Positions 44,867 through 45,635 of a DNA stretch of 64,000 nt are shown piece after piece. Source of the stretch: Thermodesulfobacteriota bacterium (GTDB lineage Bacteria; Desulfobacterota_D; UBA1144; Nemesobacterales; UBA2774); the NCBI GenBank assembly GCA_040754335.1, contig JBFMCV010000002.1:124001-188000 (forward strand), in the 5' to 3' direction. Within the stretch, counting starts at the first letter, position 1. Each line of letters begins with the position of its first letter. The translations under genes and the position numbers were made by a program. Below the pieces are notes generated by a model. It saw only the letters and a program-made list of their open reading frames with translations, had not been told where the DNA came from and made no database searches.

Positions 44867-44902
44867 AAAAATCTTAAAGGATGAGAGGGTAATAGGAAGA
44901 AT

Positions 44903-44918
44903 CCGCCAATCCTATACC
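44903..44918 (-). repeat. Core relative of the GGTATA palindrome family
   Basis: On the minus strand it reads GGTATAGGATTGGCGG, matching the core-plus-right-arm of the 48-bp repeats (GGTATATAGGGTTGGCGG). The flanks give only a weak stem. Confidence 0.55.
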
Positions 44919-44932
44919 TCTCCGAATTCTCC

Positions 44933-45006
44933 CTGAAGTGACATTGTGACAGATGTGCAGGGTATATACTCGGCACGACTGTCACAATGTCACAAACTAG
45001 AACCAC
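44933..45006 (+). repeat. 74-bp palindromic repeat, copy 1
   Basis: Differs from copy 2 by one base in 74. Perfect 15-bp arms GTGACATTGTGACAG (44938-44952) and its complement (44979-44993) enclose a 26-base loop with an inner GTGC/GCAC stem and an AGGGTATATACTCG apex. The right arm is a tandem 8-mer, TGTCACAA twice (44980-44995). Confidence 0.9.
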
Positions 45007-45023
45007 GATCCGCCATCCGACAG

Positions 45024-45066
45024 ATGCGACAACCCTATACCCCTGCGCGTTTGTCGCATTGTCGCA
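45024..45066 (-). repeat. Diverged member of the GGTATA palindrome family
   Basis: Arms ATGCGACAA (45024-45032) and TTGTCGCAT (45051-45059) enclose an 18-base loop whose minus strand contains GCAGGGGTATAGGG. The arm continues as a tandem TTGTCGCA twice (45051-45066). The stem sequence differs from the 74-bp repeats, but the loop core and the tandem 8-mer design are kept. Confidence 0.7.
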
Positions 45067-45260
45067 TGATGAAAAATCCCCTCTACTTCCTTTTCTATAG
45101 AGGATATATAGAAGAATCAAAAAACATATTATATAGAAATCAGAACTATTGCCGTATCCGGAAAAAATGATTGATGAACTAGACAAACGAGCTATTACGG
45201 TAAGGTCCCGCCAAGAGTCCGATCCATTCTCTTCGTAATGCCTCCCTCTCCGAAGTCTCA

Positions 45261-45334
45261 CTGAAGTGACATTGTGACAGATGTGCAGGGTATATACTCG
45301 GCACGACTGTCACAATGTCACAAACTAGGACCAC
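45261..45334 (+). repeat. 74-bp palindromic repeat, copy 2
   Basis: Same arms (45266-45280 and 45307-45321), loop and TGTCACAA tandem as copy 1. The single difference is near the 3' end (CTAGG for CTAGA). Confidence 0.9.
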
Positions 45335-45341
45335 TCCCCGC

Positions 45342-45389
45342 CACCCCGCCGCCAAAGTGGGGTATATAGGGTTGGCGGTGGCGGCGGAC
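45342..45389 (+). repeat. 48-bp GC-rich palindromic repeat, copy 1
   Basis: CACCCCGCCGCCA on the left and TGGCGGTGGCGGCGG on the right can pair. The apex contains GGGGTATATAGGGT. Copy 2 lies 185 bases on in the same orientation. Confidence 0.85.
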
Positions 45390-45420
45390 TCGAAAATTGG
45401 TCATGCTACTTACCCTGAAT

Positions 45421-45444
45421 TGTAGGAGCGCCATCCTGGCGCGA
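45421..45444 (+). repeat. REP-type element, forward
   Basis: GTAG at 45422-45425 precedes a GCGCCA/TGGCGC hairpin (45428-45442). A 5' GTAG tetranucleotide plus imperfect palindrome is the mark of REP elements moved by RAYT (TnpA-REP) transposases. Confidence 0.75.
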
Positions 45445-45469
45445 CAAGAAAACGCTACATGAAATCTGA

Positions 45470-45492
45470 TCGCGGCTGGAAGCCGCTCCTAC
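45470..45492 (-). repeat. REP-type element, reverse
   Basis: GCGGCT/AGCCGC hairpin (45472-45486) with GTAG on the minus strand at 45492-45489. It forms an inverted pair with the element at 45421, about 25 bases away: a REPIN arrangement. Confidence 0.75.
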
Positions 45493-45526
45493 AGATTTGA
45501 TTATCAGTGAGCTAGGCTTGCTTCCT

Positions 45527-45574
45527 CACCCCGCCGCCAAATGGGGGTATATAGGGTTGGCGGTGGCGGCGGAC
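45527..45574 (+). repeat. 48-bp GC-rich palindromic repeat, copy 2
   Basis: Same as copy 1 except around the left end of the apex (AAATGGGGG for AAAGTGGGG). The arms are conserved. Confidence 0.85.
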
Positions 45575-45612
45575 GGACAATGTCCGCTGATAAACGATTC
45601 TTGCATTGTGTA

Positions 45613-45635
45613 TCGCGGCTGGAAGCCGCTCCTAC
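45613..45635 (-). repeat. REP-type element, third copy
   Basis: Same hairpin and terminal GTAG (minus strand) as the element at 45470-45492. It is a singlet. Confidence 0.75.

Follow-up and report, generated by a model that had tools for sequence, protein, structure and literature searches.

A genus-specific family of dispersed GGTATA-apex palindromes with a concerted stem code in uncultured Dadabacteria

What kind of element combines a fixed short apex with variable stems, and how several such elements come to lie side by side in one gene gap, is the question raised by an intergenic region of the analysed window (the whole 64-kb stretch of DNA, G000:C2:124001-188000, from a genome of 3.26 Mb). 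The gap is bounded by a PEP carboxykinase-like gene (end 44866) and an isochorismatase-like gene (start 45842), both named from their translations, and contains five full GGTATA-apex palindromes, one half copy, a REPIN-like pair, a GTAG REP and a mini-palindrome, located in the window as follows:

44900..44918, minus strand: half element comprising just the left half as far as the apex (AATCCGCCAATCCTATACC); intact counterpart in G003:C167
44938..44993, plus strand: E1, stem code GT, with two TGTGACA units, two inverted units and the core GTGCAGGGTATATACTC; fold z -8.7
45008..45067, minus strand: E2, stem code GC (TGCGACA), with an additional unit GGCGGAT at the right; fold z -4.8
45266..45321, plus strand: E3, identical to E1, within a 102-nt direct duplication that includes flanks
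45342..45389, plus strand: E4, GC-rich class (CCGCC...GGCGG)
45422..45492, no strand: REPIN-like pair of inverted GTAG-tagged REPs (GTAGGAGCGCCATCCTGGCGCGA ... TCGCGGCTGGAAGCCGCTCCTAC), 71 bp, a separate repeat family whose REPs also flank the RAYT gene of the genome
45527..45574, plus strand: E5, GC-rich class, 96% identity to E4
45575..45587, minus strand: mini-palindrome CGGACATTGTCCG, directly next to E5 and belonging to a second family (TGAGC-xxACATTGTxx-GC)
45612..45635, minus strand: GTAG-tagged REP (GTAGGAGCGGCTTCCAGCCGCGAT)

GGTATA or its complement occurs 33 times in the entire 64-kb window, six of these within ~640 bases of the gap (44913 on the minus strand, 44961, 45036 on the minus strand, 45289, 45361 and 45546). 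A first-pass annotation had counted six apex elements here; the motif is indeed present six times, but only five occurrences belong to full palindromes, while the sixth is the half copy, at whose position G003:C167 has an intact element with a shared left flank (87% match over 61 nt). Part of the cluster consists of duplicated sequence, with 93% identity between positions 44917-45018 and 45245-45346 (102 nt) and 96% identity between 45342-45389 and 45527-45574 (48 nt). When folded as single-stranded DNA, E1 and E2 surpass shuffled sequences (z -8.7 and -4.8), whereas the GC-rich E4 and E5 fold no better than shuffles (z -0.6 and -0.9), so that the pairing of the GC-rich copies, taken alone, is not significant. 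The earlier claim that the stems differ completely does not hold, all of them being variants of a single 8-9 nt unit.

The palindromes are a real repeat family, specific to one genus of uncultured Dadabacteria, with traces in a neighbouring genus. The apex pattern GGGTATATA occurs 44 times genome-wide, compared to 17 occurrences of the reversed control pattern. With a covariance model built from 15 copies of the same genome, supplemented by E4/E5-type members confirmed through sequence similarity, 24 distinct sites were recognised, of which 17 lie less than 2 kb from another (0.7 expected; never more than 8 in 5000 random placements). All 24 sites are located on contigs C1, C2 and C8, which comprise 46% of the assembly, while contigs C3-C7 have none. 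The three congeners G001, G002 and G003 yielded 26, 20 and 21 model matches, respectively, with both strands counted, and among 57 further relatives matches were restricted to three genomes of the same family, namely G007 and G010 of the neighbouring genus (g5; one to two matches) and G015 (a single weak match). A shorter model gave a similar spread with the loss of G015, and no matches were found outside the family among the 61 genomes searched, the relatives being fragmented drafts in which several contigs terminate inside an element. A pattern scan of ~85,000 species genomes recovered Dadabacteria and chance matches, giving 25 stretches in genome contigs, with five more in viral contigs; on rescanning these loci with model R2, only Dadabacteria exceeded noise. 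The sole other match falls within a coding sequence of a Desulfovibrionaceae contig, looks like chance and was rejected. In the literature library searched, there was no paper on Dadabacteria palindromes.

An alignment of 37 copies from four genomes, unambiguous along most of its length, defines the anatomy of the element. It is ~60 bases long with a fixed GGGTATA centre, and each arm comprises two tandem units of the form T-xx-G(A/C)CA placed 8-9 nt apart, with the same units inverted in the opposite arm. The core takes the form ATxxGC[A/G]GGGTATATA, also written (A)TxxGC(A/G)GGGTATATAC. The GACA/TGTC half of the unit is nearly invariant, while the dinucleotide xx, here termed the stem code, is GT, CC, GC, CT, GG or AC and agrees among five positions of each copy to an extent far beyond that of shuffles. 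The terminal arms vary by code class and are thus not constant terminal inverted repeats, and none of the 37 aligned copies carries a GTAG or CGTC tag at its feet. The outer and inner left units agree in code in 27 of the 37 copies (8.7 expected) and the outer left unit and the core in 22 (8.2 expected). Within a copy, 88% of the arm positions are paired, compared to 72% for arms taken from different copies, and none of 20000 permutations reached the former value. All of these values are inflated by descent, as the copies fall in a few subfamilies and independent events are overstated. In each subfamily the whole code set has changed together. For the named structure, 103 cells are changed on both sides compared to 51 in shuffles, and the covariation score of 0.321 exceeds that of shuffles (0.145; 0 of 500 as high), dropping to 0.05-0.08 in a control where the partner was slid by one to three columns; shared descent overstates the number of independent events here too. 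Three rows shifted in one arm (window 45004, L077:13897 and L126:1544) were retained in the pairing, code-agreement and covariation statistics and excluded from the mismatch count, in which G-T and A-C mismatches are equally frequent (10 each). Given the genome-wide excess of the apex, and arm pairing that persists with strong covariation in copies elsewhere, the two grounds on which the first-pass annotation would have given up its reading, lack of an apex excess and loss of pairing elsewhere, both fall away.

The called sites are all intergenic or at gene ends, and the gene gaps that contain copies are divergent, convergent or tandem, with neither an orientation rule nor a constant neighbour gene; differing codes neighbour each other inside one intergenic region. 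In respect of mobility and REARRANGEMENT, E4-class elements are 92-96% identical at four sites of their own genome, at unrelated loci, and their flanks differ beyond a shared unit of ~46 nt. The copy at C1:699897 likewise matches one at an unrelated locus in G003 (94% over 65 nt). Copy numbers also differ at orthologous loci. Downstream of the PEP carboxykinase gene, G003 has one intact element where the genome under study has the half element followed by the 650-bp cluster, and upstream of an mqnC-like radical-SAM gene the element numbers and codes differ among the four genomes. A gene pair that is adjacent in G003 is separated in the genome under study by an additional gene and an additional element. 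A GIY-YIG-like gene, read from sequence, is found between elements near another cluster in G003, and in the genome under study an IPTL-CTERM gene is found among elements. Synteny breaks thus coincide with elements, with accessory genes alongside. No target-site duplication was evident by eye among five E4-class copies, and the PEP carboxykinase and mqnC-like loci inspected offered no clean empty site, other repeat families in the flanks blurring orthology. One orthologous site carries code GT in the genome under study (L077:16722) and code CC in G001 (L130:6126), which is no more than suggestive of in-place code switching, the intervening flank being poorly conserved (~46% by eye) and the end of the neighbouring gene running into the element in both genomes.

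A second family shows comparable behaviour. Mini-palindromes of the form TGAGC-xxACATTGTxx-GC, with stems such as GCACACA, GCGCAGA, GCGGACA and GCAGACA, recur at many loci (window 47025; L066, L067, L237, L240 and others), several of them directly abutting GGTATA elements. In an orthologous pair from G001 and G002 (TATATGAGC[AGACATTGTCT]GCC versus [GCAGATTCTGC]), three stem pairs are altered on both sides while the close flanks (TATATGAGC...GCC) are identical. Because two families behave alike, the sequences suggest that a general DNA-level process may keep palindromes perfect in these genomes.

REP, BIME and REPIN sequences associated with the RAYT transposase (TnpA-REP) are short, extragenic, clustered palindromes that occur in families with a fixed short motif and compensated stem variation between families (PMC3733652, PMC3116915). 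The GGTATA elements resemble these in being extragenic, palindromic, clustered and dispersed around a fixed short motif, but this motif is the apex rather than an unpaired GTAG/CGTC tag, the arms are built from tandem coded units, there are ~20 copies instead of hundreds, and three of the four genomes of the genus lack a RAYT match. In MITEs, the terminal inverted repeats are constant and fit a transposase, and there are target duplications. The GGTATA elements are likewise short, non-coding, dispersed and inverted-repeat, with near-identical copies at unrelated loci; unlike MITEs, however, they have variable arms, and the loci read revealed neither a duplication nor a parent transposon. As in integron attC sites, structure is kept while the stem sequence varies and some loci have accessory genes between the copies, but conservation is at the apex and not at the ends, and there is no regular array of genes and sites.

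On balance, the evidence leans slightly towards a genus-specific, non-coding and non-autonomous family of dispersed miniature palindromes, REP/MITE-like, with arms homogenised at the DNA level. Near-identical copies, unrelated flanks and copy numbers that differ at orthologous loci make a small mobile element family, one of the options initially raised, the best fit, and it looks like a home-grown type of miniature mobile repeat. Copies would spread at the DNA level, the substrate being either the folded palindrome or the iterated units. The arms would be held complementary and homogeneous through template switching or gene conversion inside the hairpin, or through a protein reading the units, and the copies could then serve as breakpoints for the gain and loss of intergenic DNA and accessory genes.

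The main rivals to the dispersed-palindrome reading are iterated protein-binding sites, followed by purely mutation-driven correction. In iterated operators and iterons of the ribbon-helix-helix type, sites of 8-9 bp with a common sequence are arranged in direct and inverted order, and the GGTATA elements, with two direct and two inverted units at a spacing of 8-9 bp, may on this account be bound by a family of DNA-binding proteins, such as ribbon-helix-helix or similar repressors, whose variants set the code. The nearly invariant GACA/TGTC half and the recurrence of the dinucleotide in tandem as well as in inverted units, which pairing alone does not demand, agree with this; nevertheless it is judged unlikely, as the elements are dispersed without a constant neighbour gene or orientation rule, codes vary among copies of one genome and even within one intergenic region, and the arms still pair where the tandem units differ (e.g. 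L079, L126:2059). The protein-bound cruciform raised in the first-pass annotation is likewise a candidate. A more elaborate proposal, which we regard as rather unlikely, takes the xx of TxxGACA as a repeated two-letter address, changing as a set in five to six positions and read in the iterated unit by a recombinase or binding protein of switchable specificity, so that the elements would be address-coded recombination sites shuffling intergenic DNA and accessory genes. That these are ordinary palindromes perfected by mutation alone, through quasipalindrome correction by template switching, and neither mobile nor functional, would account for the arms changing together in both palindrome families; as it leaves the dispersed near-identical copies, the clustering and the conserved apex unexplained, it appears quite improbable. 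Were it correct, the family would still be a clear natural case of such correction.

The strong compensatory change in the stems could also be expected of a structured RNA, either a small RNA or a 3' UTR hairpin selected for pairing, as the first-pass annotation had suggested with its transcribed RNA. However, this proposal is not supported. The tandem repetition of the stem code is not required by RNA pairing. Rfam searches of the window stretch and of six other element loci gave no family at the gathering score, no terminator was found in the window stretch, and promoter-like sites show no excess in the window region. The copies occur in divergent, convergent and tandem gaps alike, and the equality of G-T and A-C mismatches gives no pointer to a tolerance peculiar to RNA, with the reservation that transcription of a near-palindrome could proceed from both strands. 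We consider a structured RNA very unlikely. Dispersed bacterial palindromes are usually recognised through a fixed foot tag and a RAYT, and mobilisation as GTAG-type REPs or REPINs by the RAYT of the genome under study is a further candidate. The elements are extragenic, palindromic and clustered, and the single Y1_Tnp (RAYT-like) gene of this genome (C8:99575; L078:3351-3977) lies ~0.6 kb from an element cluster. This gene is, however, flanked by inverted GTAGGAGCG REPs (GTAG REPs), the GGTATA elements have no GTAG/CGTC tag, and the congeners G001-G003, all of which bear elements, gave no Y1_Tnp match. The RAYT was therefore rejected as the mobiliser of the GGTATA family, an origin we hold to be extremely improbable, and its REP flanks and the lack of a match in element-bearing congeners indicate that its partners are most likely the GTAG REPs. 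The orthologous G001 locus is without the gene, and L078:3351-3977 is read as a recent REP-RAYT insertion. The search for a cognate transposase envisaged in the first-pass annotation thus came up empty, the only Y1/RAYT gene belonging with another repeat family and no enzyme being found to co-occur with the GGTATA family; the mobilising enzyme is probably not the RAYT of this genome.

Dispersed palindromes that combine a fixed apex with a concerted, iterated stem code, and that seem to do without a RAYT, provide a handle on how the two arms of a palindrome stay matched and on the ways in which small repeats can spread when no transposase is known for them. They also point to element-associated rearrangement in a little-studied lineage.

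Several other features were observed at these loci. IPTL-CTERM surface-protein genes adjoin elements in at least three genomes (L077:15210-15890, L078:5083-5751, L082:4564-5394, L126, L127, L134 and L132), and the genome under study has about 43 IPTL-CTERM genes above the cut-off, four of which are within ~2.5 kb of an element. In G001, an element and the gene that follows it are separated by a likely Phd/YefM-RelE type toxin-antitoxin pair, read by eye (L136 reverse complement, 2001-2620). A ~200-bp repeat of 70-97% identity (L081:5925-6150), possibly a MITE, is abundant in G001 and present in G002 and G003. In two genomes the 3' end of the reading frame of a DnaB_N/AAA_25 gene (L077:16751-18163, L130:6115-7569) reads into an element, and short remnants of the end of this gene (KPKxGYYE) adjoin elements in L129, with a similar form in L141.
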